Below, one piece after another: positions 2,035-64,000 of a stretch of 64,000 bases of DNA. Source of the stretch: Daphnia carinata. Taxonomy: Eukaryota > Arthropoda > Branchiopoda > Diplostraca > Daphniidae. The number at the start of each line of letters is the position of its first letter. Position 1 is the first letter of the stretch. The notes under the pieces were generated by a model. The model was not told the origin of the DNA, made no database searches, and saw only the letters and a program-made list of their open reading frames with translations. The DNA is taken from assembly GCF_022539665.2 (NCBI RefSeq), contig NC_081331.1, forward strand, positions 6,975,534-7,039,533. The letters are read 5' to 3'. Both the position numbers and the translations under genes were made by a program.

Positions 2035-5000
2035 CTAGAGGCAGCCGTTGCCCCAACATCCGCACCAGGGTAACTCGTTGCTCTTGCGACTACTCCGACT
2101 ACTCCTGCTACTACTCTCGGCCGAATCGCGCCGGACGACGAGCGTCCTGACGCCTTCTTCCGGATTGGCCGCCGACGTGTTTTCGATGACCGTTTCGACG
2201 CGGACGACCGGCTTGCGCCTTTCCTTATTGACCCGAAAGGTGTCGACCAACGAGAAGCTCCTGGCCGTCTTCTTGGCCGTGGCCAGCCGGAGGCCGTTCT
2301 TGCCCTTGCCGCCCTGGCCGCCTTCCGCGGATCCGGCCGCCGAGTTGCCCCCGTCATTTCCGCTTTCAGGAGGCGGCTCCTCGCCAGAGACACTCTTCCG
2401 TAGGATCCCATTAGACGCAGTCGACGTCGATGTTTTCGTATTACTCGGACGGCCAGTTCCGGTTCCGGAGCTGACCCGACTTCCGGACGATGCGGCGGCC
2501 GTCTCGTCAAAGTTGACCGAGACGCGCGACTTTGGCGGAGATTCGCGATGCAATCGACCTTCAGCCGGTGGCACAGTGGCCGCCACAGGCGCTGGAACGC
2601 CAACCGGAGAAGATACAGCGGGAGCTTCGTGATGTCGGCATCGATGGATGACCATCGTCTGCGACGTTGAAGTTTGCGGCGGTGCTAGTTGCGGCCTTAT
2701 TTGCGGCTGCAAACCGGCTGGCGTTGACAGAGCCGGGGCGGCCTGCTGTTGTTGCTGTTCGCACAACAGGCAATTGGGCGTCGGAGGAACTCGGCTGCCT
2801 GGGGCCACAGATGCTGATGGCCCTGGTGACGACGCCCGTTCGTCATTCAAAAGAGAAGGGACAGGCACTTCAGCCGACATCCTCAAATCCACTCGTAACT
2901 GACTTCTGTACTCGAACGAGCGGCCGATTTTAGGCATGTATTTGCGTCCCATTTCCGCCGAGGCCGATTGTATAGTTCCGTAATGGCTCTCGACGGCCAT
3001 CGACGACGACGTGCCTGGTTCGGCCGCTGTCGAACTGAAAGCGAAATCCGAGTTCTCCGCATCGTTTTGCGACTCCAGTTTGACGCGTCGATTCATTCCG
3101 GTCGGATGCGAAGCGTTGCTGGAACTCGTACCGAACCCTCCGCTAGCCGAATGGTCGCGTTGCGAAGAGTTGGGCGCCGGTGACATCCGTCGGACTTGAA
3201 TCCGGCATCCACCGACGGTGATGTGTCTAGGCAACTTGGCGTGTCCTTTGAGGCGGAAGCGGACGAGCCGCTCCCCGGTGTCGACGCCGCGAAAGAAGCG
3301 GCGCTCAACGTCGCCGACGATGGTACCGAAAGCGGCCAAGAGGAGCGACACGGTGGCGTCGCTAATGTAGTGCGGGACGCCAGTGAGGGAGACGACCCAA
3401 GTCTGGGCCGAAACGTCCGTCAGCCGGACTCGATGGCCCCTGAGCCGGAACGAGTGTCGCAGCAGATACTGGAGCGAACGGGCCGAGTCGAGGCTAATGA
3501 AGAAGAGCGAGCCGGCCAACATACGGACGCCGCGGACGTGACAGCGAGTCGGATCCAGCTGCTGCTCCAATTGATCGATCACCTCCTGAACAGTGACGGA
3601 CCGGGCATTGACCGCTGTCAGCTCCTTAGTATCGAAGCTGACCGTGTGCGGATCGACGGCGTGTAGGCGGAGCAGCGAGGCGGAAGCATCGCCGTCCGGC
3701 AGAGGATAGACGCTCAGACAATTCGCATCGCCAAGGCCTCGGTTCGTTTCGTCGGCTCGTCGGCGGCTCAACGCACCGCCGAAGGAATGGCCGTGATTGG
3801 TCAGCGCCATTGGCGGTTGCAGCGCTCGAGGAACGTCGTAACTGGAAATGGGCGGCGGAGCAGGTAAGACGTGCGACGGATGAACGATGCGGATGGGTGA
3901 TGTGCTTTTGCGGGTCGATGTCACCACGATACCGTCAATGGTGGTCGTCGTCGTCGTCGAGAAACTGGACGCAGTGACGGCCATGGTCGTGTCGGGTTGA
4001 CCTTGAACGACGCCACCACGCCCCAAATACCCGCTACTTCCGGCCAATTTCTTATTGTTGTTGATGTTATTATTATTGTTGTTGTTGTTGTTGAGGAAGA
4101 CGACAGTGCTGGAATGAGTGGCCGTCGGAGAGCCGGAAGCCGACGACGAGGACGACGATGAAAAGGAATTCCGGCGTTGCGGCATCGACGACCATCCAGC
4201 AACTCTTCCGGCCTGTTGTGCGAAGGTCGACGATCCGCCGCTATCGCCAACGCCGATATCCGTCGAACACGATTCCACTATGGCTCTTGATGGACGTATT
4301 GTCCCTGACGCGACATCCATTGCCAACGGGCTGGCCGCATCTTTTTCGATGATGGCCATCTGCCGATGTCGTTGCTGCTGTTGCTGATTGATCCCAGAAA
4401 TGGGCCGGCGTTTGATTGTGGCAATTCCGCTCGTTCCAGGACTGGACGAGTAATTGCTACCCGCGTCATCCTCGGCTTCCTCCATCAAGACGTTCGGCGT
4501 CGACGGCGTCGTTGGTGAACCTGAACAGGTGGCCACGACCAGTCCGCTCTGATGGAGTTCCTGCTCCTGCTGGAAACTGCGGACAATGTTGACCAGGTGG
4601 TCTAAATTGAAATCACCATCCTCGCTGGGCGTGTCCGGTGGAATGCCCCCACCTTCGCCGATGTGAGCCGTAGGCTCATCCTCTGCTTCAACGCCGCTGC
4701 TCTCACCTTCCTCGGCCACCTCTTCCACACCTTCTCGGCCGTGCACGGGATGGTGGATGGCCGTCGTGATGATCGTGGTGGCAGCCGCGGATGGAACGGG
4801 CGGCGGAGGAGTGTTCGGAGGCATCAAACTTGTGCTCGCCTCCACTGTGAAATGATTCGCACACTCGGACGGATGATCGACAGGATGAAGGAAATCACGC
4901 AAGTCTACGCGCACTGGATGAGAACAAGCCGCGTATCCGTCTTCGTCTTCCATCCCACTCGTGCTGTACCGGCTCTTCACGGCCGAAAGGCTCTCGTAAC

Positions 5001-5811
5001 ACACCCGACTGGTGGCGTCCACTGGCGACGAAACGGCCGCTGGCTGAGACGGTACGTGCGGATGAAAGTGTTGAGTAGCCACGTAAACTTTAGCACCGGC
5101 TGAACTGCACCGCCGCGGCATTCTTCCGTAGGCTTTCTGATAATTCTCGATGTTGTCCTTGACTGGATTGCCGCACTCAACGTAAACAGCTCCTCCACCC
5201 AGGCCGACTCGATGACGGTCGCAATTAGCCGTAGCCAGCGCGGCTTCATTGCAATAACAAGTGGCATCGAGGTCGGAGTTGGAAGCTGTCGGTGCTGATG
5301 TCGAATGTCTGAAGTCACCTGTCATGGCCGATTGTGATTTGCTTCGACTTATGGCCATCGGTACTCCTTCGCCCGGCTCCTTCTCATCGGCATCTCTGTC
5401 CTCGTCGTCGCTACCTTCCGAATTGCTATGACGACCATTGATACTTGGACTAGCTCGATCATCATCATCACCGTCGTCATCATCCTCCCTCTCTGTTCCA
5501 GCTCCGCCCTCGCCGTCCGATGGATGCTGACTGTGATGATGATGCTCCGATCCGGTGCCGGCCAGATCGAGGTGCTTGATGAGCTTCTCCAGCCGCTCGT
5601 ACTCGTCGCGCAGGGCCCACATTTCCCGCCGTAGGTGGTCGTTCTCCCTGCGGAGCTTCTTAATGTCCGTCTGGCCGCGTTCCACCTCGGCGTTGATCTC
5701 GATCGTACGTAGGCGCAGCTCTTCGTTCTCGTAGAGCATGCCCCGCGAGGACCGCTTGTCCAGCTTCCGGTTGGGTTTGATGCGCACATCCTTCTTTCGG
5801 GCGCGCAACAT
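2035..5811 (-). CDS. large coiled-coil / tandem RRM-like domain protein, 1258 aa
   Basis: A single uninterrupted coding block, far longer than chance. The ATG at 5811 has a purine at -3, and the frame is closed upstream. The N-terminus is basic (begins MLRARKKDVRIK). Residues about 27-82 form a charged heptad-like coiled coil, followed by a His run and an Asp/Glu-rich stretch (about 90-150). A Cys/His patch, CYC-x10-C-x2-H, lies near residue 183. A long Ser/Thr/Gly/Pro-rich disordered middle carries short Gln runs and an Asn run. Residues about 724-803 and 804-876 look like two consecutive beta-alpha-beta modules; the second (VVSLTGVPHYISD... to ITVGGCRIQVRR) resembles RRM-like or Gag-associated nucleic-acid-binding folds in outline. 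Further on are a CLLC motif (about 1013) and HRCRHH (about 1055), possible 14-3-3 or kinase sites (ARSFSL, LRKSVS), and a Cys-rich tail ending PWCGCWGNGCL. Nucleic-acid or protein-scaffold binding is inference, and I do not recognise the family. Transcription probably starts at 7932. Confidence 0.88.
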   Translation of the reverse strand: MLRARKKDVRIKPNRKLDKRSSRGMLYENEELRLRTIEINAEVERGQTDIKKLRRENDHLRREMWALRDEYERLEKLIKHLDLAGTGSEHHHHSQHPSDGEGGAGTEREDDDDGDDDDRASPSINGRHSNSEGSDDEDRDADEKEPGEGVPMAISRSKSQSAMTGDFRHSTSAPTASNSDLDATCYCNEAALATANCDRHRVGLGGGAVYVECGNPVKDNIENYQKAYGRMPRRCSSAGAKVYVATQHFHPHVPSQPAAVSSPVDATSRVCYESLSAVKSRYSTSGMEDEDGYAACSHPVRVDLRDFLHPVDHPSECANHFTVEASTSLMPPNTPPPPVPSAAATTIITTAIHHPVHGREGVEEVAEEGESSGVEAEDEPTAHIGEGGGIPPDTPSEDGDFNLDHLVNIVRSFQQEQELHQSGLVVATCSGSPTTPSTPNVLMEEAEDDAGSNYSSSPGTSGIATIKRRPISGINQQQQQRHRQMAIIEKDAASPLAMDVASGTIRPSRAIVESCSTDIGVGDSGGSSTFAQQAGRVAGWSSMPQRRNSFSSSSSSSASGSPTATHSSTVVFLNNNNNNNNNINNNKKLAGSSGYLGRGGVVQGQPDTTMAVTASSFSTTTTTTIDGIVVTSTRKSTSPIRIVHPSHVLPAPPPISSYDVPRALQPPMALTNHGHSFGGALSRRRADETNRGLGDANCLSVYPLPDGDASASLLRLHAVDPHTVSFDTKELTAVNARSVTVQEVIDQLEQQLDPTRCHVRGVRMLAGSLFFISLDSARSLQYLLRHSFRLRGHRVRLTDVSAQTWVVSLTGVPHYISDATVSLLLAAFGTIVGDVERRFFRGVDTGERLVRFRLKGHAKLPRHITVGGCRIQVRRMSPAPNSSQRDHSASGGFGTSSSNASHPTGMNRRVKLESQNDAENSDFAFSSTAAEPGTSSSMAVESHYGTIQSASAEMGRKYMPKIGRSFEYRSQLRVDLRMSAEVPVPSLLNDERASSPGPSASVAPGSRVPPTPNCLLCEQQQQQAAPALSTPAGLQPQIRPQLAPPQTSTSQTMVIHRCRHHEAPAVSSPVGVPAPVAATVPPAEGRLHRESPPKSRVSVNFDETAAASSGSRVSSGTGTGRPSNTKTSTSTASNGILRKSVSGEEPPPESGNDGGNSAAGSAEGGQGGKGKNGLRLATAKKTARSFSLVDTFRVNKERRKPVVRVETVIENTSAANPEEGVRTLVVRRDSAESSSRSSRSSRKSNELPWCGCWGNGCL
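4051..4094 (-). repeat. coding trinucleotide repeat (poly-Asn tract)
   Basis: A TTG/TTA-type trinucleotide repeat inside the large minus-strand coding region. On the coding strand it reads AAC/AAT codons with one ATC, giving a run of nine Asn, one Ile, then more Asn. It lies in the disordered middle of the protein, about residues 572-587. Its length is likely to vary between individuals. Confidence 0.85.
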
Positions 5812-7900
5812 GGCGATTACAGTAAGCCACGAGGTTACTGATTAATGAATTTTTTTTTTTTTTTTTTTTTGGCACAAAAAGGCACGGAAGAAAAAAAAAA
5901 AACAATAAAAACGAGCAACGTCTCAAACACCTCGTCCGGTGCGGCTGAATGATGGAAGTTTGAGATGATTTCTTTTGATTTTACATTGTCACTGTCGGAT
6001 GCATCACTGTTCCCTATTGGGGCTCGTATGATGTTTGAGGAAACATGCCACTGCAATTTGAAGATATTATTCCAGTTACGGTGAAGCGTTTTTGTGTGTG
6101 GACTTGTTTTGTCGTAGATCTTCGCCCACTTGATGGATCTTGATGTATTACAACAACAGCAAAAAATAGGCGGCGATTCGGATGCCTTTGAAAGAAGAGG
6201 TCAGTGTGGCTCTTTCTCTCTCTCTCACCAGGGCGTTACTTAGGCAAAAAGGAGTAAAGGAGGCTTTTTTTGAGTATCGTTTTCACGTTCCAGGAAAGAC
6301 TGAAAGAAAACCAGAAGGGTTTTATGTTCTTCTTTGGGCTTCTCTTTTGGCTCCTTGTTCGCATCCTTTCGTCTCGGCGAAGAAAATGTTTTCACATATG
6401 CAAACGGCGTCTACTCGACATATTGCCTCGTCGGCAAATACAGCCGACGTCTTCAGAGATTTCACCTCGTTGATTATTCCTGTGAAGGCAGTCGCCTACT
6501 CATCCGAAAAAAGAACGGCGTGCGACCGCTACCTTCAAAACGAGCGCACCGGAATGAAATCACACATATGTGCGCGGGTTAAGAAGAACAAGAAAGTCAA
6601 AGAATATCGGTCATAGCCATGGGACTTAATATATGAAACACAAGAGAGTTTTTGGCCCAGCAAAAAAAAAAATTGTGTGTAGGATTGGCGCAGAGATGCG
6701 ACGAAATATCCAACTGCCACCGCCCTCCGTCAAAGATTCAAACACTTAAGCACGTTCTAAAGCTTCACGCACATGGAATGCTATTCAATCACTTTCGTGA
6801 TCGTCCATTGCGAAGCACAACTTGGTTCGATTTTTTTCTATTTATATGTATATATGTTTTATTTTGTTATCTCGGCCCAAGTTATTGTTCAGTAAAGGTG
6901 AATGGTAATTATTTCCCTGTTCGTTTTTGGAGTGGGAAGGAGACGAGTTGCAACCCTCTGGGTTCGTCTTATTATTGCTATTTTTACTTCGATGACGGTT
7001 TTTGAAAAATAGCTGAGATTGGCGTAGGATGGTGAGTGGTTGACACAGTCAACAGACAGACACAAACACTGGCAGCAACAACGCAAGCGGAAAGAGAAGA
7101 ATAACACTGGCCCTTCTTCTTTCGGATGGCGTTCGGCTTTTGATGTGGAAACTTGCGCAACCCGGTGTGTGTGGGCTGGACTTTTAAAGCTCAAAGCTTT
7201 TAGAAAACAGTGTCGAAAGAAGACCGGAATTTGAACGAGAAGAATAAACGCAGTTTTTCCCTTTTTTTTTTTCTTATTCTGTTATAAATAGACTCACGTC
7301 AAATCGATTCGCACATTGGGGAGAGAAACACACGCACGCCGCACGTTTTTTGTATACATACACACGCACTGGTAGACACAGAAAGCGTTCTGAATTCTCT
7401 ATGAACTCGAACTCGTGTGTTTGTGCGGCACACGCTCGTCGAGATGTCGAACGAATTTCGAAAGTACCGCCCTAACTATCGGTTCCACGCGATTACAGAC
7501 GACAGTTGAAAAATTCTTTTTTTTTCGTGGTCGAATTTGAACCCGTTATTATCTAGCACTCGATGCCATGTTTGTCCACACTTCACTGACACAATCCAAA
7601 TTTTGTTTCTTCAATCCTCAGCTTTTTTTGTGTGTGTGTATTCTTCGATGATTTTTACGGCAGGCCGGTTTCAAACATTGGCAATGTTTTCGTGAAGAAC
7701 AACTTCCAGCGACCTACACCCACCTACACAAAACACATTGGTTCGTTTTGTCGATGCCAGTTGTTGGTGTTTGCCCTTTCGTGAATTTTTGGCACGTCGT
7801 CTGCCTTCCCCCCCTTTCTCTTGTTTTGTTTTTTTCTTGTCCTTTTTTTTTTTTTTTGTAAGGACTACGATTTTAGTTGAGGGGATAGAGTCGCCAGACG
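5812..7900 (-). other. 5' UTR / possible 5' intron of the leftward gene
   Basis: This lies between the inferred start site (7932) and the ATG (5811), with no convincing coding frame. A possible 5' UTR intron is visible on the minus strand: a GTGAGT donor at 7297-7292, and an acceptor AG at 5839-5838 that is the first AG after a long pyrimidine-rich tract. If used, the leader would be a first exon of about 635 bases joined to an exon starting at 5837, 26 bases before the ATG. The plus strand has a 21-base T run (5850-5870). Splicing here is inference from motifs alone. Confidence 0.35.
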
Positions 7901-8388: not shown

Positions 8389-11300
8389 ATGTTCAATATG
8401 AGACAGACTGGATACATGACCGTGTAATCACGTTAGCGTACTAATAAAGACAGATATATAAGAGTTAAAAGACGTCAATATCGTTTCAAGAATGATGTGA
8501 GGACTTTTCATGAAATCTACGTTGTTCGTGTCTCCAGGCGAGCGGCGGGGGTAACATTCAGTCAATATTTAGAGCTATCCTGTTAAACGTATATGTCTAC
8601 CTCGTCCATCTGCGACTCCATTAAGATAATTGGTCTCCGATGTGGCCTGGTTCTCGTTCTCTTGATTCTTCGTCTCTTGTCGGCCCAATACGTTTTGCAG
8701 ACGTACTCTATCGCTCTGGGGGGAATTCGCTAATGAATCGAATGAGCGACGAGCGAGAACAGAGATGTAACCGCACCCCCAACTATTTCTCTGCATGTCG
8801 TATAAACGGCGTATCATCGACCCTTATTCGTTCGGTAACCGCTGCAGCCATTCAATCTAACTGATTGGGGCATCGCAATCTCTTAAAACTTAAACTCTCA
8901 GACTGGAACATTATTCAATATGTCATCGCTGATGTGCAAGTGCATGGAACTGACTGAAAAAAATTTAGCGGAATTAAGTTATCCCAATTATTTTTCTGCG
9001 AAAACTCGTTAGAAAAAATGAAGCCCTCGTTAAAGTAGAGCTATAGTTAGGTTAGTTTTTTTTTCTTTCAAATCAACAGCCGAACGTAAGGAGTAACGTT
9101 TTCGTAGGTGCGGTAACGTTAACAGGGGTATGGATCGGAATAGGATTCTAGGAAGGGGCGCTAGATTAAGAACCTCGACCGAAAGAGTCAATGCGTGTTA
9201 TGTTTTTCACTTTGGTCCTTGCTCCAGTCGCACGTTTGTCGCCATGATAATAAACAGACCCAACCCAAACCCGACAAAAGGGTGTCCCACCGTATCGTAT
9301 GCAATACGAAAGAGAGAATTCGCAGATGGTTCCGGTTCCGGATCACTCGTCTTTTTATTTTTCTCTCTCACTCTGATTCACTCAAGACAATGCAACTGGC
9401 CTGCCGCACCGATTCATTTATCCAACCCAAAACAAAGAAGAAAACAATAACCATCTAACAAAAACAAACACGACCGCTGTACATGCACACGTATATACAT
9501 ACAGCATAGCTACCTTACATATATATACATACAACAATCACCACTCCAAAATAGAAAAAAAAAAATTTAGAATTTTGTTTTTTTAAGGAATCTGGTTTGG
9601 ATTCGAACGGTATGTAGGGCCAACGCCCTTTATCACGGCAATGGTCTTTTTTTATTTATCGCTCTTCGTTTTCTTATTGTCTTTGCTTCCTTAGTCGTTG
9701 CGAATTTTGTTTCTTTGTTATTGCTGCACCTACATGTACCACCTAGCTCTATTTCTCTTGTAGCCCCTTCTCGACGGTCTTCGAAAGACACGAAAGGCAG
9801 CACTGAAGTGGGGCACGCAGAGAGAGAGAGAGAACTGAGGGAGTTGGCACGGAGGGATTCAACTGACGCGCGCGCGATTCAAATCAGTCAAAACCGTTGG
9901 AGAAGTTACAAAAGAAAAGAAAAAAAGTTTGACATCATCAAGTAATCGATTTTTCAAAGCCATCGTCTTGTGAGTTGTCAAATTCGATAATATTTGCTAC
10001 GATTGATCGATTTCTTCGATCTACCGTACGCCATGCCGGTGGATTGCGACGTGATCGAAGAATGCCGGCGAAACAGGTCGACCAAATCGCGCGCACTCGA
10101 CACATCGTTCATTCGACTTTCATTCCCCATTGTCTATATCCGTTTCAGAGAAAAAAAAAGGAAATCAGTAAACAGAAACGAAAAGGCAAAACAATAAACA
10201 ATCGAAAAGGAACCCAAAAACAAAACAGGAATTCGATCCTTTTTTTTTATTCAATAAATTGATGATTTCACTCGATGGTTCCATCGATATTCCTAATCAA
10301 CTCATCATCTCCAAATTGAAGCGATGGGTTGGCAACGATACGCAAACTATGTCCGCTTGGGAGGATCAAACTCGAAAGGATGAGCTCCTAGTAGGACTGT
10401 TCATTCACCCCCATTGCTGACTGAAACGGTTTATTGCCATATTCTTTTGTTTGTTTTCTCGTGTTATTGTTTCCCATACTTTCTTGTGTTGGCCATCGTC
10501 AAGAAGTGTTTGTTGTTTTCTTACTATGTTGGAGGAGGGTATGTGTGCTACATTATCCTCGGCCTTGTATACATTTAGAAGGGGGAGGGAGCAAAAGGGA
10601 GGGCAAAAGGAGGTAAGGTGGCCAAGATCTTCGTCCCGTTCGACTATTATTATTTATCCGTGGTAGTTATGGATGTAATGAACATGCGCAGTTTTTTTTT
10701 ATGGCCAGAAGAACCAAAAGTCTGGACTACGGAAGCTTCTGATGGCACTTTCCACTTTGAATGACGGAAGACGTAAGAGCCGCTCGTATTGTCAATCATT
10801 AAACGAGAGCAAGTCGAAGGGAAAGCGCAGGCGGGGATGAATTGCGAGTACACAGTATAACGGTTGGTCCGGCATTTGTCGTTCTCCTTCCACTCGCCAG
10901 GTTCCACGAGAACTTGGCGGCCATACCGATCCAGTCATGGGGATAATAAAAAGGGGGAAGGGAACTCTTGCACGTAACAAAGTAAAAACGGGAAGAAAGT
11001 GACGGCATTAGTGATGTAAAAGAAGCTCAACCATCCGAATGCGGTAATAAAATGGATACTTTAGATACCCTACAATAGATCGCAATTTCATAATGATTTT
11101 TTAAATAAAACTTGGCTTTGGTCGGTCTATTTTTGCTTTGTGGTCATCGAGGAGTTCATTCAATGAGACCATCTCTGCAATCGAAGAGATTTTCGATCGA
11201 TTTATTCGTGCATCTTAATTAATGAGAATAAGTTAAAGGTTGTCCACGTCACAAAACGCTTTTGGCATAATCGAAATCACAAAACCAAAAAATGCAAACC

Positions 11301-44551: not shown

Positions 44552-44590
44552 TATAAAATGCTTATGGAAAGGCGATCAAAACCGTCAGTC
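44552..44590 (+). promoter_or_regulatory. TATA + initiator promoter for first exon A
   Basis: TATAAAA at 44552-44558 and a perfect TCAGTC initiator at 44585-44590 (A+1 at 44587). The TATA T lies 35 bases upstream, slightly beyond the usual window. The start would give a 137-base leader to the ATG at 44724. No strong DPE is present (AATCC at +28 to +32 against RGWYV). Confidence 0.45.
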
Positions 44591-44723
44591 AAATTCAAGT
44601 AACAGTCGAGGGAAATCCACCGTCTCCGTCGTTTGCGTTTAACACTTCCACTGTGATTGGCGATTTATTGAAACAGTGGGCATTTCTAGTTCATCACTCT
44701 TTATCATTTGTTCCTTGTGCGAT

Positions 44724-45086
44724 ATGGAGCAATCCTTGCTCGAGCTGTACAGCCTAGACCTGGAAGTTCATGAAGTGCCGGACAGTGAGAAGCACTACGA
44801 TGTGTGGCCTATGGAGACGGACGAGTATGTCGAATGGCTCCTCAGTTTTCAAAGTTTGTTAGACTCACTTCAACGGGAAAGCGTAGACACGATCGAACAA
44901 GAACTAGAAATCTTTGTGCTACCACTTCAGAATAGCGAGGACAACTTTGCATCTTTGACAGCGATCGAATCGAATGAAAGTTACCATCACTGGCTTTCTT
45001 CTTTGGACAATAACTCTGAGCTCGACCAACAGGTGGCCGATGGCGCATCGCTATTGTACGAATTCTTTGCAGCGGGAAATGCGGCG
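44724..45086 (+). CDS. alternative first coding exon A (acidic N-terminus, 121 aa)
   Basis: The ATG at 44724 has purine at -3 and G at +4. The 363-base frame (exactly 121 codons) is rich in Glu, Asp, Leu and Ser (MEQSLLELYSLDLEVHEV...) and stops reading like protein just where a GCG|GTAAGA donor occurs (GT at 45087). It exits in phase 0, matching the phase-0 acceptor of the common exon at 52731, 7.6 kb downstream. It carries acidic, possibly helical segments and short Trp/Tyr motifs (YDVWPMETDEYVEWL) but no domain I recognise. I chose this ATG because the frame upstream starts only with a GTG. Its negative charge contrasts with exon B. Confidence 0.7.
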
Positions 45087-47165
45087 GTAAGATTTAAACC
45101 GATTCCCCGATTCTCAATTCATTGTAACCTGCATTTTTTATCTAAAGCATCGTGTAAAACCTTGAGATTTTTAATTGAGAAGTAAGACCAAAATCGCAAT
45201 CAACGTAGATTGTGCCAGCTTTTGAAGCTTCGTTTTTAACATTTAACTAGAGACATTGGCTATCTTGTTTACTAGGGCATTAATCCTGTATAAAAGATAC
45301 GATTTCAAGAAATATTCTGAGTAGCCAATGTTGTTCAAATTTTGATACCTTCGCCTACTCTAATTCCACTTGGCAATGTATGCCAAAGATCATTACGACG
45401 AATGTAATGCCACTGGGTTTATTTTTATCGAGTTCGTTTCGCTTGCAAGTTCCAATGATTTGGAAATGCGTTTTTGTGTCAATAGTCAAAGCAATAAAAT
45501 TTTTTTCGCAGTGTTCAATGTTTGCGTAGAGCGAGAAGGGAAAAAAATCGTTTTGATTGTTTAGTACATCGGTGGGAAAGGTTCCGTGTAGAAAGCTAGC
45601 GAATGATGGTGTTACGGAGTCAGGTAAAGGCGCAATTTTTTAAAAGATGTCTCATGTTTCTAGCGTGTAACAATCTAGCCCGATTCCGCAACACCTGAGG
45701 GGGTAGAAACAAAAGAAAAAGAGGGGCGATGAATCCTGCCGTCTGTGTTTTCCTCACCCGATTTCTCCCGTCTTGCACCGTCGTCAAGGGTCAAACCGCA
45801 CATCAGGCACTTTAGATGCAAAGGGGATGTGTATACACGTTTCTTGCTTCCCGTCTGCCGGTTGAGACTGTCGATTTTCTTGTTCCTGCAACACTTCCCG
45901 CGCCCTCAATGGCATTTCCAACAAGACACACGAGATGTAAATTACGTCATTTCGCGGTCCGTAGCTGCCTCGACATTTTTTTTAAACAATGACAGAGCGG
46001 GTAGCATTGCTGTGATGACTGTTGGAGCCATTACTCGAGACCTCCTTTGGGCGACATGTTTCTCTTAATTTTGGGCCTGAAAAATAGCCGGTAGGCTTAT
46101 GATTTCTTTACATAAAATCTCAAGATAAAAACAGGCAGAAGTTATTCATTTTAAAAAATTCCTCTGCGATATTATTTTGTAGCACCGTAGTAAATGGTTG
46201 ACACCATGTCCATTTTGTATAGGAACGTTAATATTTTTTTTTCTGTGTCAGATAACGAAAGTAAATATTTCGACTGCTTCGTTGGTATTTTGAAACTGGC
46301 ATTGTATGCATTACGCGTTCCAATGTTCATGATATTTCGTCGTGTGACGTGAGTGATAATCGTTAGAAAGCGAGACAATTTCGTTGGCCGTCCTTGATTG
46401 ATAAGGCGATTCACGTATCTCTCCTATAGAGTCCACAACAACAACAACAAAAAAATAAAGGCCGTTTGATGACGACAGATTAATGGAAACATGTTCAACA
46501 ATGGAGGCCCCCTTGTTCTCGTTGAGCATTCGCTAGTCGAATTTCGACGCTGCGTATAGTTCATTGAAATATTTCTGCAGCGCCTTTCTCTTGGCTCGAT
46601 TTATGCGTCCTGACTTTTACGACCTGCAGCTGCGATGCGGACAGGTTGGGCACGCACACGGCTCATTCCTTCCTAATACTGCCCGCCGGGATGTGGAAAG
46701 AGAAGACAGTTTGATTGCATTTTCACCTCCTTTCTCTCTCATTTCTCTTTCCCTGCAGCACACCATGCTTCGCTACTCTAATCAGCTGGTAAACGTCTCT
46801 TCCCCCCGCATCTTCTCTCTGTCTTTTGTCTATTTAACTGACCCTGCATCTTTTGTATTTTAGCTCTAATGCTTTTCCCAGACATCAGCCTGGTTCTGTG
46901 GGACTTGAATGACTTGGCAGACGTTGTTCCAATGATTGGTTTTCATGCGAATCGTGTTATGTAGATGCTACCGCGAATGAGACCAGTTTTTTTTTTTTTG
47001 TTTTAAATAGCCACCGAATGCCAGTAGAATTTTTTTAAAAAAAAGATTGTCCGCTAAACCAGCAGGGAGGGGGGTCTATTTTCTTTGGCCATCTGTTGCG
47101 ACCTTCTTGGCTGGGTTCCTCTTGTTGTTTTTCCACATTTTTAAAGCGTTAGATGAAGTAGTATA

Positions 47166-47288
47166 ATGGCTGAAAAGAAACAGTGCACCTCAAAACGCAG
47201 CGAGAGCCGATACCGCACAACGGCAGCCGATGAGAATCAGGTGAACCAGCAAGACTTTGAATCTATTCTGACCGTAACATGCGACTAA
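47166..47288 (+). CDS. small ORF (40 aa) or further alternative first exon
   Basis: ATG-TAA frame with well-mixed, polar composition (starts MAEKKQCTSKRSESRYR). A CAG|GTGAAC donor-like site at 47240/47241 would cut it after exactly 25 codons in phase 0, the same phase as exons A and B. The donor is weak and no promoter stands out, so it is equally likely to be chance. Confidence 0.2.
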   Translation: MAEKKQCTSKRSESRYRTTAADENQVNQQDFESILTVTCD

Positions 47289-47424
47289 GGAAATAGGCAC
47301 TATAACGACGACACACAAAAACGTAGAAACAAACGCTACAACGACTTAAACGCAACAAGTTCTACTTGCTGGAGGTATTTAGAAAAAAAAAAAAATTTTG
47401 TCCAGCAGGTGACGTGCTGTGCGA

Positions 47425-47441
47425 ACGCGCGCGCGCGCGCG
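47425..47441. repeat. (CG)n alternating tract
   Basis: About eight CG units in an otherwise AT-rich intron. The sequence is able to adopt Z-DNA. Confidence 0.85.
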
Positions 47442-50400
47442 GATTGCGGTTACATGTGACGTCCAGCAAAAATGCTTTGCTGTTTCCTTATTTCAAATTC
47501 TGTGTTATCCTTTTTCTTTTTGAATGAAAACCAAGTATTTTTTTTTTTTTCCCTCCTTTTTTTTCGGCTTTTTTTTTTGTTGTGCGTATTTCTTTAAGTA
47601 GCGCACGCCAGATGGACCGTGAACACCCATTGAGTTGACGGTTAATTAGGAACGAGCTGAAAAGTTTTTTTTTTTACATTTGCATTTGATGTCAATATTT
47701 GCGGGCTATAAAGTGGGAAAACCAAGCAGATTGTGCGATAGAGAGGAGGGATCAAAATGCTGTTCTCATGGAAAGGACTCGCTTGTTTACCTTCTGTCAT
47801 TTTTTATCGAAAACTCTCGTCCACAGCGGGAAGTAACATTCAATATTGTCGAAAGGAAGTCGGTTAATCGGAACGGACTCGTAACGGGGAAAAGACTTTG
47901 AAATGGACGTAAAAATTCTCATACGTAACATCCCCAAGTTGAATCTGGTGAGCCCATCGAGACGATCAGTGATGCGAATAGACATACATTGTTTTTCGTT
48001 TTTGCACTATCACTAATGGAAAGCAAAGGGAAAGTTGTCTGAACAAGACCTAATGGCTGCATTTTCTATAAAGACTGTAAGTTATCCATCAGATCCAATC
48101 GGCTTCGCGGATGATTGAAACTACAGAGTACATGAAAGGCGGTGCCATCTTATTGATCATGTGTGTAGAGAAAGTCTGATCAATTTTCACGGAGGACGGT
48201 AGAAAAAAATATGATCTCGATTCGTGATGCGTTTAATGTTGATGCGTTTTCTTTTATCGTTACCTCGAGGACAACATCTTTTTTTTTTAAACCAAAGAAC
48301 TTTGACGAAATGAGACTGTGAGAACTTTAGTAACTGATGGTTCCGACAAGTTGTCTCCTACCACATGGATGATCGGACACCAAACTACATGGGCCGTCAT
48401 TGTCCTTTGAATAAATTGAAAAAAAAAAGAGGAAAAAGAAAGGCAAGAATGCTTTTAGTCTACAATTCTGCGTGTGCAGATGCTGCGCTAACGGTGGTTG
48501 GAAGTAATCAACAAAGCAATCGAAGCCATTTTTCACGGACGCCTAACCCACTTTCCTCTTTTATTCCAAATGATTTTCTCACGGAACGGCCACATCGGCT
48601 CGCTGCACTGCTTTTGTTTACAACCAACTATATACGATTGTGCTCCTTCTTTTGAATCTAAATCAGCAATTGCCAAATTTGCCTATTCTACTACGGACTT
48701 TCTTTCGTTTTCTATGCCGCTCGTCGATTATTTTATTTTATTTTTTTATGGAGATCGTATCCTCACGCCGATCGGAATTCTCCTATCCAAATAGAAAAGT
48801 TGCAACGTAGAGCGAAGAATCGTTGTCGTTACGCCGCGCCTTTCAAAATACCGATGAACGTTGAAATCACTAAAACATGATCGCTCTCTATTGATGTTTC
48901 TTTGAGTTTCATTGGCCACCTGAGGTCATTACTGTGCTACAAAACGCGGTCCACGTGCCCGTTTGAAAAAGAAAAAGAAACCCTGCCCAACAAAAAGGCA
49001 CTTTAAAATGTTTATGATGAACATTTCGCGTCTCTTTTCCGGTTTTTGTTTATTTAATTGCGCGTGTGTCGTATGAGGATGCAACCACGCAGGAAGGAAA
49101 AGAGTGGCATCTCCATTCTTTTTTGACAACAAGTTTTCCCTAACTGTCGTCACAAAACAATGGATTTTTCTTTTCGAAGCGTGTGAAACGGGTGCGTATA
49201 GTCGCTCCATTTTTCCGCTATACTAATTTTTTGTTCCTTCTGCCATTTTTTTTTTGTGTATTATTTTGAAACAAAGTGGTCGAGATTAATTACCGTAACG
49301 AACGGCATAATTTTTTTGTGTTTATTATCTGACTGATGAGAAGCACGATGACCCGTCTTCAATAAAATAATGATTATACTGGTTTATTCCAATTGACGAG
49401 AAAGCCAGCCGTAAGGTGAACGGGACGAAATGCCTTTCTCTCTTCCTTCCTGACTCGCCCCAAAGGCTATGTACAACATGTCAGACGGATGGGTCTGTCT
49501 GAACGCGCACCGTAATCGCCGAGACTAGGGTAAATACCAATCTCTCGCAATAAGCACATGCAACGCGCTTCGACGGTGGTATGGTGGCGTTTAAACTTCC
49601 GAGGAGAAAGTGCATCGCCCCGGAGGAGATCGCTGCGAAGCGACGTGAACGAAGCCTCTCTCACAAGTTGAGCGTAAACGAAGAGAAAGTTCTGCCAAAG
49701 ATATGATGGAAACAGCTGGAACAGTCAGCCCCATAACTGAGATTTATTTTTCGTTTTATTTTCTTTTCTTCCCGCTCTGCTCGTTCGCTGGCTTTTTGCG
49801 ATCGACACATTTTTATAGGCGGCCGCTTACAACCACACTGCGCCCATTCTTTTCTCTTGTATGCCTGATGATTGTTGCGTATTCACCAGTGGCTGTGTCG
49901 TTACACAGTGCCTTTCACTCGGATATACAGCCGTTTCTTTGAAGGAACTAGAGCTACTGGGCCGCACATTGACGGCAAACAACAAGTGCAGAATTATTAG
50001 GGAAGAGACTCGGTAGTGGTGCTCATTCGAAATTGAACGACCTACTTTTTTCTCTTTTGATTGGGAACTCCCGGCTGCTCCCGCCTTTTTTTTTTCTCCC
50101 TTTCTGGATGTGCATACTACTATGCACATAAAACTTCTCTAGGCCCCGCCTGCCCACTCTTTCCTACGCATAAGAATGTTTGTTCCAAAGGGGTTAAGTG
50201 GAGCTTGCCATCGGTCGGTTGTTCCAGTCACTACGGCGACGTAGAGTAGAGAAAGGCATCAGTTGTAGCGCGTCGTTCGTTCATTTCACCTGTGCATTTC
50301 CACTGTGCGCGTTTCATGCGTGTCCCGTACCGTCTCTTTTGTTAGTCTCGTTGGGCGCATATTGTTTTCTTTCTCTTTTATTTCTTTTCTTTTGGAGAGA

Positions 50401-50712
50401 GAACTCTTTTATTGCCTACTTGTCTTACTTGATTACCGCACGCGTATTGACGGGTGAGTCGATTCACACGGCCGGCATAGAAGAAACAAGATGGGCCAGG
50501 TTGGTTGTTTGTCCGCTGTGCCGTTACCATCGCAGCCCACTATCGTAGGCTCGCACTCCATTTGAAGCCGGTGCTCTGTTGAGCGAGTCGACGACCAACG
50601 ATCCAACGGGATAGTCATCTTCGTTTTCATTCTCTTTGTAGTGTGTTATGTGTCCAGTTATATCATGACATTGCGCCTAGAAAAAGTGTTTGGTTCAATA
50701 TCGATCAGCCGA

Positions 50713-50719
50713 TCAGTTT
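50713..50719 (+). promoter_or_regulatory. initiator for first exon B
   Basis: TCAGTTT with A+1 at 50715, exactly 100 bases upstream of the exon B ATG. There is no TATA at -30 and no DPE at +28, so support is the initiator match and its position only. Confidence 0.35.
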
Positions 50720-50814
50720 CGTGGATTTAGTTTTTGTTTTTTTCACGACAACCAACTTTGCTTCTCGTTGTTAACAACTTGACAATATTTACAAAAGATA
50801 ATACGATTGACATC

Positions 50815-50901
50815 ATGTCGACAAAGTCCGGCTTAAAGAAAACGTTCTCGTGGCGTTTTGGCCCGTCCAAATTTAGCCGGAAGAGCAAACCGCATTCAGA
50901 G
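50815..50901 (+). CDS. alternative first coding exon B (basic N-terminus, 29 aa)
   Basis: The ATG at 50815 has A at -3. It opens 29 codons (MSTKSGLKKTFSWRFGPSKF then more Lys/Arg) and ends GAG|GTATGA with the GT at 50902, in phase 0. It joins in frame to the common exon at 52731, 1.8 kb downstream. The peptide carries Lys/Arg with interspersed Phe/Trp and no acidic residue except the last, a composition typical of membrane-phospholipid or nuclear-targeting N-termini (inference). It is an alternative to exon A, which encodes an acidic N-terminus. It is short, but the frame, phase and position agree. Confidence 0.75.
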
Positions 50902-52730
50902 GTATGAATTGTATTGACTTTCTATATTACTGCTGTATATCTGTGGGCGACCTGGTGATCTTTGGCATCCAATTTGTTGATACTAAAAAAGACTGGCGTT
51001 GCCTCGTTCGCTAAAGTTTTTGGCTTTTTCGAATCTTTGGGAACCGGTATTTCCCACAGCACCGACACTTTAGTCATATTTAATAGTGTGTTACCTATTT
51101 TTTCCATCGCCAAAAAATGTTGGCGTTGTTTTACGAAGAACGGGAGAGAAATTGAACTATATACTGTATGTATTTTTTTCTGTGGCCCTAAAAGGAAAAC
51201 CATGGCAATAGAGTAGTCTCTCTTTTTTCTTTTTTTTTTAATCCTCTTCGGTTCCTACTTCTTTCGTGTCTTGCTGGCTTTGCTCGTGGCAATCATGCCG
51301 TGAAGTCATCGCATCTGTTCTCCAACTTTTGAATTAATTGTTCTGAATTATGTAGTCAAACTTTCTTGTGTCGAGAAGAATCATTTGCCATTCAATTTGA
51401 CGACATCTATGTCAATTTGTTGTGTAAGCATGTGACAAAGCGACAGTTGCACTCCGCTGCGTTTACGTACCGGTTTTTTCTCAATATTTATTTGGTCCAT
51501 TTTTGACCGAGAATCGTGGTCATGTTTGACGTTCAGCCAGGCCATCCATCATTCATCTCGCGTTAGGGAGGAAGAAAGCCGCGCGGATTTTGTAACGTGT
51601 CATGTTTGCATGACACTCTTACGTTTCTAACTAGAAACTTAACAATAAGCCAGTAATTGACATGCATTTCGCGCTTGCATCCAGCCTGGTGTAAAAAGAG
51701 GTAGAACCGTGTACTGACGCGAAAAGGAGGCCATGACGCGGTGTAACTCACTCACCGTCTCTGGTGGTTACGATGGGTATGGTTGTTTTCTAAGTATTTT
51801 TTTTGGAAAGCCCTTTCGACTGGCAAATTATATGATATAATATGATGCTGTAACCATTTCTTGCATCTGCCTTGTTTTTACTGTTTATTTATTTATTTTT
51901 GATATGCTTCAGATGCGCAAAACGTCCATTCTGGTTTAGCGATCCGGTCAGGTGGTTTGAGAGCTAAGGAATCGTAAATGTGAAATTGCGTCAGCAATGA
52001 TATCGTGGAAATGGTGCAATCCGTCCGTTGAAGACTTGATTTATGTTAGTTGTGACGGGTTGTGACAAGCCGACCCCATTAAGATCAACAGAAGCTGATT
52101 TCTTTCGTCTCTTTTTCAATATTCTATTTGGCATTGATTTCTTCTTGTTAGGCTGGTAGTTTTCTTTTTCCTCGTCCCGTTTCGCGTGCGCTGGTTTTAT
52201 TTCGCGAGAAAAAAAAATCAGTTTTTCTTGCCTTAAATCATCACGACAAGTTTCTTCTTTTTTATGTGCTCATTTTCAGGGCTATTTTTTTGTTAGTCGA
52301 GTTGATTGCAAAATTTTGCATCGTTTATTCCGTCCTTTATTATTATGACAATGATAGGTATCCATTACTGATATCACTGGCGGCACAGTTTTCTAAATGA
52401 ATTAACTATCATTATTAATAATTATTACGCTGTATCTATTTAGCCATATAACAAAACACGCCACCATTCCCAATTCGGCTAAAACCAGTTTCTCTCGTTT
52501 ATTAAGGAAAACAAGCTTATCACTGTCATATCCCCATTACTCGTCTTTGAGTCGAATCCGTGATTCTCTCTCAGTTTAATCTGGTTGGAAGATAAATTTG
52601 TTCAGTCGGTCAAGAGACGTCGTTCGGTTCAGTTGCTCTATTAAATGTGCTCACAAATCACAGTTTCTCATAAAACAATATCTTTTCTATTGGCCGCCAC
52701 TTCAATTCGTCAATCTTTTGAACTTTACAG
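50902..52730 (+). other. intron between exon B and the common exon
   Basis: Begins GTATGA and ends TTTACAG at 52730, preceded by a T-rich stretch. No coding frame of interest lies inside. Confidence 0.7.
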
Positions 52731-54822
52731 GCAGAGGTTGAAGAACCCGAGAGTCGAAGGCACGCTAACGCCTTTGCGTTTCACGGCCAGCTCCAGCAAT
52801 CGGGTCTCAGTTTAGACGTTGAAAGAGACTCTAACGGCGAGAGCAACAACAGTGGGCCCAACAGCTCTGTCGGCTTCATTTCGGACATCTTGGACGGTGT
52901 GGTCTTCGCGCCGGTTGGTTCGTCTGAACTACCGCGCCCATCACCCGACACTCGATCGCGATCGACTTTGTCTTCATTCCGCCCTACACCGGAATCTGAA
53001 GAGCAGCCCAATCACCCAGTAACAACACCAGCGCCGGCAATAAGCAGTGGCAACCAGTTAGAGCCGATCAAATTGATCCGAGCCAAGTCGCCGCCATTAA
53101 CGGATCTCGAAACGCTATTTCAGCGCGAGTTAGCGGCCAAGATCAAGAAGCGCTGTCAAGACACCCAGCAGCGCCAGCTAGAGAAATCTCTGATTTCTCC
53201 CGTTAGCGCGCCGACAGTTGTACGGTCGCAATCGTCCGCCTTGCCGCCCATTCCGAAAATCATCGAAGACCCAGTGCATTCAGTCGTGGCCGATGTAGTT
53301 GTGTCCGAATTTGAAAACCCGCTCTACCAGACGTTAGACGAGTGTTATTCCGGATCACCTACATTACTTCCACCTCCTCCCCCGCCTCCACCACTTCCTC
53401 CGGCGTTGCAATCTGATAACGACGAAGAGGCCACCTATGCTGTTATAGAAGAGCGCAACGCGTCTCATTATCAGGCAGTAATCCCTGCGACTTCAGCCAG
53501 CTGTAACGAGGAAGATCATAGGGTCTACGCCCAGGTCAATCATAGCGACGAAGAAGAGCGAGTCTACGCTCAAGTGGCCGACGGCCTGGTAGAAGAGAAG
53601 CTCTACGACACGGTGCAGCAATCGGAAGAGACCGGTGTTGATCCCAACGCCATCTACGAGAATTTGGAAGAACTGCAAGAACGCGAACAGACTTACGCCA
53701 ATATCTGTTCGCCTTCGGACTGTACCCCACTATCGCATCCGGCCAACGTGCTAACCGCATTAATGTTGGACGTCGAAGCCACTTCCGCTGTTACCCCGGC
53801 GTCGTCGATCAGCCGTTCAAGCGACGACAGCCGCAGCTCGGGCAATTCATCGGGCAGTCCGCAACAATCGGCTTCGTCGCCCGAACAGCTTTCGCCCACC
53901 GATTCGTTGGCCAACGGAAGCATCGGATCCGCCCGCAATATCGGCAGCCCAGATTCGGGCGTCTTTGGACTCCTCCAACCTGCCCATTTTTCATCCGACT
54001 TGTCGCCTCCTACCGACGCGCTGAACAACAACGTGAAGACGGAACTGAAATCCGGCGGTCAACAAGATTTTTTGGATCAAACTTTGAAACAGTTCGAGAG
54101 ACTGGAACAGCTGAGTTCCGGAATTTTTGAGAGCTCGCTAAAACAGTCCGATAAGATGGAAGATGACTTGCAGCCTAATGGAATGGAAGAGAAAGTTGGT
54201 GCGCCCGAGCAGACGACCCAACCTGTTTTGCTTCCTGTCGTGATGGCCGAAGATAAGATCTTGCCCGTTTCAGAGATACCCATCGAGACACTTTTGGATC
54301 TGGTCGGATCTGTTGAGCCATCTGAAGCTAAACGACCTGAATCTGAATCTGAATCGGACGAAGAACATGTCGTTCGTCCGCCGCAAATGCCGCTGTCACC
54401 GCCCCCTGGCGAACCGTTCCGCACTTACGATCCGGCTAATGAGGATGGTCTTTTCCAGGCCTCACTGGTCAGCGTTAATTCGCAAGCGTCATCTTCAATG
54501 AAAGAAAGTGACGTCAGCGACATGGAAAGTTTTTCAAAGGAGACCATTCGATCTCCCGAACCAAAAGCCAATTTGGGAGCGCAGATCGTTGAGGACGAGA
54601 TGAAAAGGATGCAGGAGCGAGACCGACTTCGCAACGAGAAACTCGGGTTGGACAATGTTGGCCAGTCATTTGATAGACTCAGCTCGAACCGCTACAACGT
54701 CATTGATGAAATGACACCCAAGACCACTAAACGCAAAAACTGGCTTTCGCCCGCAACCGTGAATGCCACTTCTTCTGACCAGTTGGAGCCTTCGCCGCTA
54801 GATGGCAACCGGCGCCTATCTT
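52731..54822 (+). CDS. common exon of the rightward gene: disordered tyrosine-motif scaffold, 697 codons plus 1 base
   Basis: The acceptor TTTACAG precedes 52731, and the donor CTATCTT|GTAAGT follows 54822; the reading frame is open throughout and enters in phase 0 and exits in phase 1. The 697-residue segment is Ser/Pro/Glu-rich and disordered. Residues count from the exon start. A short Lys/Arg-rich helix-like segment lies near 130-145. LPPPPPPPPLPP at 213-224 could bind SH3, WW or EVH1 domains. Seven Tyr-x-x-aliphatic or similar motifs fall in 236-322 (YAVI, YAQV twice, YDTV, YENL, YANI among them), the last two forming an ITAM-like YENL-x9-YANI. A Ser-rich stretch, an acidic SESESD block and a charged coiled-coil-like helix (about 610-630) follow. 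A role as a phosphotyrosine scaffold is inference. The family is not recognised. Downstream exons are outside the window or too short to see. Confidence 0.88.
53655..53705 (+). other. ITAM-like tyrosine pair
   Basis: The codons read YENL, nine residues, then YANI, which fits the ITAM pattern Y-x-x-L/I-x(6-12)-Y-x-x-L/I. It is the last pair in a run of short Tyr motifs within the common exon. Tandem SH2 binding would need phosphorylation and is only inferred. Confidence 0.5.
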
Positions 54823-57228
54823 GTAAGTTCTCAAAACCCACTCATTCATTCTGTTGTTATATTCTTTTAACGATGATTTATTCGATTACGCATAAATCAT
54901 AACGGGAAGCTTCACACTTGTCTCACCTTCTGGGAAACATGCGTAACAATACCAGGGGATACAAAAAAAAAATCTATGGAACCAGTTTTCAATAGCTCGA
55001 TTAAGAGACTATCAATCCTGTTTTTCGAAATTCTCTTGTGTAACGTCAAGTCGATTAGATGACACAACATGCTCGAGCTAGATTTTTCTCCAATTGAGTA
55101 GAAAAATATTTTTAAGATGAATTTAGACACCGCCAGTGCTAGTGTTTATAGCCCCTTAATGGTCCAGTTTGACGGAAATCTGCTAACGCCTTGACACATC
55201 GCTAAGAATGCCCGAGCCGATAGGGAGGAAAAAACATACGTCTTGCCTCGTCATTTCTAATTTCGACATTCGTAGGAGGCCGGTGACCTGATCGTGATAT
55301 CTACAACACGCTTATCATATGCCGGTTGGAATGTAGAACACTAGGTTTTACTCTTGTTTATTCACCTTAGAGGCGAAGATAAAAAGACAAGAGAACGAAT
55401 GATAGAATAGAAAAAAAAAAACTCCTAAAAGCCCTGATCCCGCTAAGCCCGTAAGCTGTTGACGTCGTACGAGGCCAAATGGAAATTCCTTTCGGGAATG
55501 ATAAAGGCGTGCGGGTTACAGGGCCTAGTTAAAACAGCTATGGCGGTACGCTGCAACAAATTTGGTTATCACTGTCAACAATCTCATAACAATTTTCACC
55601 CCCTTCTAATCTCTCTTTCCCTCTCTCTAAAAAAAACTTTCCCCAACTTTTTTTTAATGTTTCGTGAGTACAGGGTAATGCTTTTCTCTTGACTTCCAAA
55701 GGTAATTCACTAGTTTCTCTCAAATGTGACGATGTTTTCATTTCCTTTTGACAAACGGGACCATGGCTGAGTGCGCACCTAGTGACCTGGATGCGTTTTG
55801 GCTTGTCTTTGTTTCAAGCAATGCCTTAGGATTCATTGAAAAATAATGCGAAAATTTTTGTAAATTGACCCTCGTTGTTCACAGAGATTATTGAAGTCAT
55901 GTTAAACAAAAACTTTTTGGGGTCGTTTGAATCAGGACAGGGAAAATTATGTGTTGTTTTTTTTTTTTAGGGGAGGGAGGGGGTATGTTTTGCTGTTGCC
56001 CTTGTTAATGTACCGAAGCTCGAAGTTGCCAAGACTGGCATTGGCGATTGTAGGTCGTGAGGTCTCTTTGCATACGACTCGACGACCTTTCGTGAGTTGT
56101 GTGCCCACGTTCGTCCTCCTTCCCTTTCTCGAATTTTACCAGCCGACGGAAACTATCGCATGTAACCTCGCTGGCTTTATTTTTGTTTGCTTGCTAACGG
56201 TGAGCGCAATTTTGTACAGCCGCCTCGCTCTGTCGTTTAAAAAGTTGAATGACCGCCCATTTTTTTGAGGGACAATGAAATCCTCCAAAGATGCTGCGTC
56301 CGTGTGTGTTAATGGCAATAGCCTTTTCTCGTGGACTTTGATAGCCGAACGGCGCCATGCACTCGTATATTCCTGCATGGCAAATAGGAGAACTTGTCTA
56401 TAGTAAAAACAAAAAATTGGTATGACGTTTTGCATTTTTCAAGTCCCTTGTTTTTATGTTGCACATGGCCCTCCCGTATAAATCAAATCAATTTAATGTA
56501 AACACCGTTAAATCAATGTCCACTAAGGATGTTTTGATCCTGCTGGGATTTTTTTTCAGGATAATCAAAAGGTCGTAAAAAAAACAGAGGCTTGAGAACT
56601 TACAGGAAAGCCGGTTGGATAGCGTACAACATTAATTATACGTACGTTGTTTGTTTTTGTTTCTCATAAACTGGCATTCAATGGCCATCCGTAACTATCC
56701 CTGAGTCAAACGAATCACGAGACAGCAGGTACCTTTTTTTTTCTGAACATGTGATAGTATCGCCTTGGGGGCAATATACTCTTAAATCGTTCATCCGTGC
56801 ATCTGAAAATGCGTTTTGCCATCTTCAGTGGTACTGTTCTGCCTTCTTTTTCTATACATTTTTTTTTTTCCCCTCTTTTGATCCTTGTCGTGTTTACTTT
56901 GCCCACCCGCTACTAACTGCTGGCCGTCCACATATTTTAACCACCCAACCATCTACCGATCACCGCCTCTAGCGCGCAGCCGATGCCTTTGGACGCTCCG
57001 CTCCAGCAACGACGACGTGCATTGATCACGCTGAGTTGCGTCGTCTAAAGAGAAAAAAAAAGGCGCGTCGTCAAGAGTTAAGGAGCGGGCATGCTGGTGT
57101 GTATCTTGTTACAGGAGTGTGTATGCGTGCGTGTGTGTGTGTGTGTGTGTGTCGGCTAAGAGGTCTTTTAAAGCGCGGCCGGGAGAGTCGACCGCAAGTA
57201 AGGCTGTAAGAAAGAGGCAGAGCGAAAC
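54823..57228 (+). other. intron following the common exon
   Basis: Starts GTAAGT. No acceptor followed by a phase-1-compatible coding frame is evident before 57229. The open frames are short and T-rich. The next constitutive exon must be further right, probably beyond the window. Confidence 0.55.
57129..57152. repeat. (GT)n microsatellite
   Basis: About 12 GT units, about 75 bases upstream of the inferred internal start site. Polymorphic length is likely, and a regulatory influence is possible. Confidence 0.9.
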
Positions 57229-57260
57229 AGTTGAGCTGGAATCGTTCATCGAGGCGGACG
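57227..57260 (+). promoter_or_regulatory. Inr-like + DPE promoter for first exon C
   Basis: An initiator-like ACAGTT (one mismatch to TCAGTY) places A+1 at 57229. GGACG occupies exactly +28 to +32 (57256-57260), the DPE position. The same GGACG at the same spacing is used by the leftward gene's promoter at 7932. The leader to the exon C ATG would be 204 bases. Confidence 0.45.
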
Positions 57261-57432
57261 TATACTGTCATCTTTCACGTGCAAGTGCCCCGATAACAGT
57301 TGATAATTGGAAGCGTCGTACGTATACAGAACACTATTATTCGTTTTTCACCGCGCATTTGTGCAACCGACATCCGCATTTCATCAATCGATTGGAGGTG
57401 GAAACGCGTGCGGTTTTTGAGCGGCACTTCCA

Positions 57433-57568
57433 ATGACGTCTACGACGGCCGTCGTTTCGGCATCTTCTTGCTGCGACGTCTACCTATCCAATAGAGACAA
57501 GCTGTTCAACGGTTTGGCACGCATCCCTAAAGCCGCTAGCACCAGCTGCCTCTTCTACGATGGCTCTA
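57433..57568 (+). CDS. alternative first coding exon C (45 codons plus 1 base)
   Basis: The ATG at 57433 opens a well-composed frame (MTSTTAVVSASSCCDVYL... with LSNRDKLFNGLARIP) ending at a consensus donor CTCTA|GTAAGT (GT at 57569). The exit phase is 1, identical to that of the common exon (54822), so both can splice to the same downstream exon. That would make a short isoform lacking the whole 697-residue Tyr/Pro-rich segment and starting from an internal promoter. The -3 base is C, so the ATG context is weaker than for A and B. An overlapping 105-codon frame ends in a TGA that shares bases with the ATG. Confidence 0.6.
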
Positions 57569-63654: not shown

Positions 63655-64000
63655 AAAACGCGTGCTACCCTTTCAGGTGTTTCATCTGTCGATCCAGTTT
63701 CTCAATGACCCGTGGGCCACATTTGAAGGTTGCCGTCTGTTTCTTTATCGCGCCCTTGATTCTCCTGTCAGGCCCAGTGCTTTTCCTTGTCCATAACGCC
63801 ATTCACGAAAGATTTCGATTTCGTGTTTTTTTTAGGGGGGTTTCATTTCCCTTTTTTTTCTCCCTCCCTATTTCCGGTCCTTCGCCTTGGCGTCATACGT
63901 TTCCGCAGCCGAGAGAACAAAGGCAGATCGCCCTTGTAAGCCGTTTGTGACATCTGCTACTGTCTTTAGACGAATCTGTTTCCCAGCAGATAGTGTACTA

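Follow-up and report, generated by a model that had tools for sequence, protein, structure and literature searches.

Three alternative first coding exons in a single-copy AKAP2_C gene of Daphnia carinata predict two long proteins and one short protein

A 64,000-nucleotide stretch of the Daphnia carinata genome (contig NC_081331.1, positions 6,975,534 to 7,039,533; hereafter the window) contains three open frames, each running from an ATG to a splice donor, and the question raised by this locus is whether they are alternative first exons of one gene and which proteins would follow from their use. The initial annotation had proposed that exons A and B exchange the N-termini of two long isoforms, while exon C opens a short isoform that dispenses with 697 residues. 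This structural claim is correct, and the support for it is better than the argument originally offered. One gene with three alternative first exons, in which A and B lead to long proteins and C to a short protein, is well supported: each first exon has its own start codon and joins in frame to a shared acceptor, as judged from frames and phases, from the annotated B form and from an A form in D. sinensis. Genes with alternative promoters or first exons in general provide each exon with its own ATG, shared acceptors and compatible phases, and no categorical difference from them is seen in the D. carinata gene; the architecture is of an ordinary, already known kind, of which this locus is a fresh instance.

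The gene is NCBI D. carinata LOC130691352, which encodes an uncharacterized protein, and its isoform X3 (P0001) is the top protein match with 100% identity. The coordinates, ATGs, donors and phases of exons A, B and C and of the common exon all proved exact on recheck (Table 1). Each of the three first-exon frames is closed by an upstream in-frame stop, and its ATG is the first one thereafter. In the splice model, the predicted products comprise 1651 aa (A), 1559 aa (B) and 878 aa (C), the two long proteins differing only in a tip of 121 versus 29 residues.

Table 1. Features of the locus; coordinates above 64000 continue the window numbering beyond its last position.
Feature	Position	Strand	Details
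Possible TATA element (TATAAA) of the exon A core promoter	44552-44557	+	35 bp upstream of proposed start 44587
Initiator-like TCAGT before exon A	44585-44589	+	proposed start 44587
Exon A (alternative first coding exon)	44724-45086	+	363 nt, 121 codons; exit phase 0; donor GTAAGA
Initiator-like TCAGT before exon B	50713-50717	+	proposed start 50715
Exon B (alternative first coding exon)	50815-50901	+	87 nt, 29 codons; exit phase 0; donor GTATGA
Exon common to both long isoforms	52731-54822	+	2092 nt, 697 codons + 1 nt; acceptor TTTACAG; donor GTAAGT; exit phase 1
Tyrosine cluster with polyproline run inside	53325-53696	+	residues 199-322 of common exon, 124 residues
CAGT only, upstream of exon C	57229	+	proposed start 57229
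Exon C (alternative first coding exon), predicted short isoform	57433-57568	+	136 nt, 45 codons + 1 nt; exit phase 1; donor GTAAGT
Window end	63900-64000	+	still within last intron of window
Shared phase-1 acceptor	65718	+	after TTGCAG; contig position 7041251; 1.7 kb past window end
Downstream exon 1	65718-66747	+	splice model
Downstream exon 2	67031-67270	+	splice model
Downstream exon 3	67753-67879	+	splice model
Downstream exon 4	67973-68143	+	splice model
Downstream exon 5	68212-68766	+	splice model
Downstream exon 6	68834-68946	+	splice model
Downstream exon 7	69019-69283	+	splice model

The two long isoforms with exchanged N-termini are borne out by protein matches. Residues 1-29 of isoform X3 reproduce exon B letter for letter, residue 30 opens the common exon, and residues 30-726 are identical to it. 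The N-terminal part of the D. sinensis protein GHT06_008708 (P0002, 1647 aa) is homologous to exon A (75.6% identity over 119 columns) and runs straight into the common exon, which is 92% identical in this protein. The exon A protein is found once in the genome search; a single-sequence AlphaFold2 prediction of its structure is helical, with a mean pLDDT of 48, and is not usable. The D. sinensis protein lacks the residues GNA that close exon A (45075-45086), immediately ahead of the junction; this reflects either an in-frame deletion or the use of a different donor. Exon B was also considered as a cassette exon following A, a reading that was rejected, since only one AG lies between its upstream stop and its ATG, and that AG does not fit the phase.

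Both the common exon and exon C were expected to share a downstream acceptor, and the phase-1 acceptor at 65718 fits both in the splice model, opening an exon that is in frame with either of them. From this acceptor, seven modeled exons lead to a single stop at 69281-69283 for A, B and C alike. The junction between the common exon and 65718 is crossed by P0001, P0002 and P0003, the last of which derives from 4.9-kb contigs; the corresponding junction of exon C, 57568-65718, is predicted from the shared phase-1 acceptor. A tandem AG acceptor (AGCAG) occurs at 67748-67753, 3.7 kb past the window end, and the extra serine that it can add is present in NCBI isoform X3 and P0003 and missing from the D. 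sinensis model. The NCBI model takes the upstream AG of this pair, and its B form therefore comprises 1560 aa rather than 1559.

The case for the short isoform, which omits the 697 residues, depends on this shared acceptor, on an open gene model and on the fact that exon C is conserved as far as its donor. A query of 70 residues, made up of exon C and 24 residues of the next exon, returned three candidates, each of which matched (P0040, P0041 and P0042; E 1.7e-17 to 9.4e-15); these are short ORFs from contigs of 6.7 to 16.5 kb. Within the 45 residues of exon C they are identical to D. carinata at 38/45, 37/45 and 36/45 positions, respectively, and past the donor at 1/18, 1/18 and 3/13. Among themselves, the three ORFs share 36-41 of 45 residues before the donor and 2-3 of 13-20 after it. 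The residues SSKS span the donor in all four frames, as translation of a GTAAGT-type donor in that frame would give; for the relatives, this comparison was made on protein. Conservation thus collapses at the exon C donor, as is expected where a coding exon ends at a conserved donor. The DNA of exon C was found once in the genome search.

It could be argued that only the long isoforms are real and that exon C is a conserved frame belonging to another small gene or an upstream frame. In keeping with this, the exon C isoform is pointed to here and was not seen as annotated in the protein searches, which returned no annotation joining 57568 to 65718. The 878-aa query found no annotated exon C isoform among 37 proteins, where one could hide in a cluster, since proteins were clustered at 90% (P0001 represents three members); P0003, which is a long form, is the sole Daphnia-like protein among the 37 listed. 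This explanation nevertheless appears quite improbable, since the likeness of the four exon C frames ends at the GTAAGT donor as a spliced exon predicts, the phase of exon C suits the acceptor at 65718, and the short forms of other arthropods, described below, begin just before the same exon.

A very improbable alternative is that exon C is a 147-nt cassette exon (57422-57568) inserted between the common exon and 65718. The frame permits this reading, given that an AG at 57420-57421 yields a stop-free, frame-preserving exon of 49 codons that passes from phase 1 to phase 1; the acceptor does not, and the reading was rejected. That acceptor reads GAG and stands without a proper pyrimidine tract; its score of -4.3 compares with 5.1 to 12.0 for the eight acceptors of the gene and is reached by 81% of the 1846 AGs in 30001-65717. 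Moreover, the ATG and the residues MTS are identical in all three exon C relatives, followed by variable residues 4-12, and P0001, P0002 and P0003 join the common exon straight to the 65718 exon.

The initial annotation had relied on the low joint probability that three independently found exons would agree in phase. This argument is weak because the exons were picked by those same criteria, and simulation in first-order Markov sequences, one exon type at a time, upholds it only in part. A-like frames (at least 121 codons, phase 0, permissive donor, 30001-52730) arose in 3% of 200 sequences, and C-like frames (at least 45 codons, phase 1, GTAAGT, 54823-65717) in 4% of 400, so that A and C with its GTAAGT donor are rare; however, B-like frames (at least 29 codons, phase 0, 45087-52730) arose in 70% of 400 sequences, so that sequence alone cannot separate exon B from chance, and C-like frames become frequent (57%) once a permissive donor is admitted. 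That all three are chance ATG-to-donor frames selected for matching phases, as the latter frequencies might suggest, is nonetheless hardly credible, being contradicted by the matches of B in isoform X3, A in D. sinensis and C in three ORFs.

Coding potential and donor strength were scored with models built largely on the gene itself. A codon model was built from 2800 codons of this gene and of the long minus-strand window ORF 2035-5841. Under it, exons A and C score positive in their own frames and negative in the other two; exon B is slightly negative in all three. Exon C has the best codon score among six ATG-to-donor frames of at least 45 codons in 54823-65717. By a small donor matrix, for which seven further donors of this gene served as the training set, the donor of exon A is matched or beaten by 3.2% of the 2012 GTs in 30001-65717, that of exon B equalled by 0.2%, and that of exon C by 1.2%. 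A scan of 6001-52730 for phase-0 frames of at least 20 codons found 19 donors, none convincing besides A and B, and a scan of 54823-65717 for phase-1 frames with GTRAG donors found three frames, with a positive score for C only. The region 6001-44551, about 38 kb, is poor in long frames. It includes an ATG-to-donor frame of 43 codons in phase 0 at 10262-10390, whose codon score is slightly positive and above that of exon B; this frame could be unrelated to the gene or a candidate for a further first exon.

We infer separate putative promoters for A, B and C because every first exon carries an ATG of its own and none showed a usable acceptor. The initiator-like strings listed in Table 1 are poor promoter evidence: judged from the density in 30001-65717, TCAGT has a probability of 0.18 and CAGT of 0.48 of occurring in any 200 bp. 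Within 400 bp upstream of the ATG, TATAAA occurs for exon A only, and once there. Upstream of the three exons, GC content and CpG ratio range from unremarkable to moderately high, with percentiles for A, B and C, respectively, of 0.59, 0.81 and 0.93 (GC) and of 0.96, 0.48 and 0.74 (CpG).

The choice between long and short forms would determine the presence of the 697-residue exon, and with it a cluster of tyrosines. The tyrosine cluster holds 9 of the 11 tyrosines of the common exon, eight in YxxV/L/I and one in NPxY. In the whole common exon, YxxV/L/I occurs nine times, a number reached by none of 1000 shuffles (mean 2.1). Compared with shuffles, the single proline run has a P of 0.007, the one NPxY a P of 0.07 and the two YxN a P of 0.09; YxxP is absent from the exon. 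A-kinase anchoring proteins bind the RII subunit of PKA through an amphipathic helix; a loose RII-like pattern, scanned in the common exon only, occurs twice, which is no excess over shuffles (P 0.17). Pfam returned nothing above the cut-off for exon A or for the common exon (best for the latter VWC2L_2nd, E 0.14, 12.9 bits versus 27), and no solved structure in the PDB matched it at E 1. In an alignment of six long forms, the NPxY block (FENPLYQTLDECYSG vs FSNPVYQTLSECLSG) and several nearby tyrosines of Daphnia are also found in Artemia, and the decapod rows do not align at this block; the tyrosine region is thus alike in branchiopods.

The C-terminal part of the protein contains the Pfam domain AKAP2_C (PF15304), with 54.2 bits against a cut-off of 27 at residues 521-875 of isoform C. 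A genome search for this domain yielded one match from two candidates, located in the last exons of this gene, and none in 14 control genomes. The gene is single-copy in D. carinata and belongs to an AKAP2/MISP-like family. Its insect and crustacean relatives have the AKAP2_C region above the cut-off in 6/6 proteins scanned and share the motif SILxxKxxTKxYWE, which lies at the start of the 65718 exon in D. carinata. Outside Daphnia, the relatives show no more than weak similarity to the 697-residue exon (Artemia, 21% over 539 columns) and no clear match to the peptides of exons A, B and C. One Macrobrachium entry of the family carries the NCBI name mdu, presumably short for 'meduse'; a paper search on 'meduse' brought up no work on a Drosophila gene.

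Both long and short forms occur among these arthropod proteins, and they differ upstream of the one conserved motif. Scored as S(I/L)..K..T...W on 39 proteins, and counted per protein rather than paired within species, the motif is present in 28/39 and missing as written from 11/39; it lies at least 150 residues from the N-terminus in 15 relatives and fewer than 60 in 13. Eight of the latter 13 are named short forms (Cloeon, Neocloeon X2, Homarus X1, Scylla X5, Polyplax, Bemisia X2, Amphibalanus X2 and Trinorchestia), and the remaining five are contig ORFs that may be truncated. Since the motif starts six residues into the 65718 exon, the exon C short form shares the layout of the short relatives.

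Taken as a whole, the locus is very probably a single-copy AKAP2_C gene with three first exons, of which A and B splice to 52731 and C, like the common exon, to 65718. Three promoters would yield two long proteins, with a 121- or a 29-residue tip, and one short protein: the phase-0 exons A and B would splice to the same large exon, and the phase-1 exon C, situated downstream of that exon, would use the acceptor that also serves it. Promoter choice would then probably provide the conserved C-terminal half with or without a putative docking region consisting of nine YxxV/L/I tyrosines, one NPxY and a polyproline run. In vertebrate relatives, the C-terminal half acts with actin; the long form would add phosphotyrosine docking to this scaffold, the short form would lack it, and the A and B tips may direct the long forms to different places.

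MISP, which we take to be a vertebrate relative with a C-terminal family akin to AKAP2_C, is the sole functional model used here for the D. carinata protein. The likeness is by family only; MISP is described as a protein that binds actin and, at the cell cortex, guides how the spindle is oriented (PMC5910412). AKAP2 is reported to have an RII-binding site around LVQNAIQ and to be produced also in fused form together with paralemmin, whose gene lies upstream (PMC3405040). Vertebrate PALM2-AKAP2, as presented there, resembles the D. carinata gene in that an AKAP2-type C-terminal half receives varied N-terminal parts via alternative upstream exons, and differs from it in that the N-terminal part is paralemmin, a separate upstream gene (PMC3405040). 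No paralemmin match above the Pfam cut-off was found in exon A or the common exon, and a genome search with PF03285, run without a positive control, gave no match.

Whether the exon C promoter represents one case of an old long/short switch in arthropod AKAP2_C genes is a tentative suggestion that we regard as somewhat doubtful. If true, promoter choice at one conserved intron position would set the presence of the tyrosine docking region, an arthropod counterpart of the N-terminal swapping in vertebrate PALM2-AKAP2, and the tyrosine region would be an optional module that could be traced by promoter, tissue or sex. Independently of this, the locus yields a gene model, open to testing, of a so far uncharacterised scaffold protein of arthropods in Daphnia, a standard ecological model animal. 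It also illustrates that a reading of raw sequence can call alternative first exons but fails for promoters and for small exons such as B.

Regarding neighbouring features, Rfam (gathering threshold) and ARAGORN found nothing in the window. A minus-strand stop-to-stop frame at 2035-5841 encodes 1268 residues rich in glutamine and serine; it has no Pfam match above the cut-off (best DivIC, E 0.0035, below its cut-off) and probably belongs, as a large exon, to an unrelated gene. Past the window, minus-strand frames at 104845-117879 resemble, by eye, what we take to be several innexin genes in a row.
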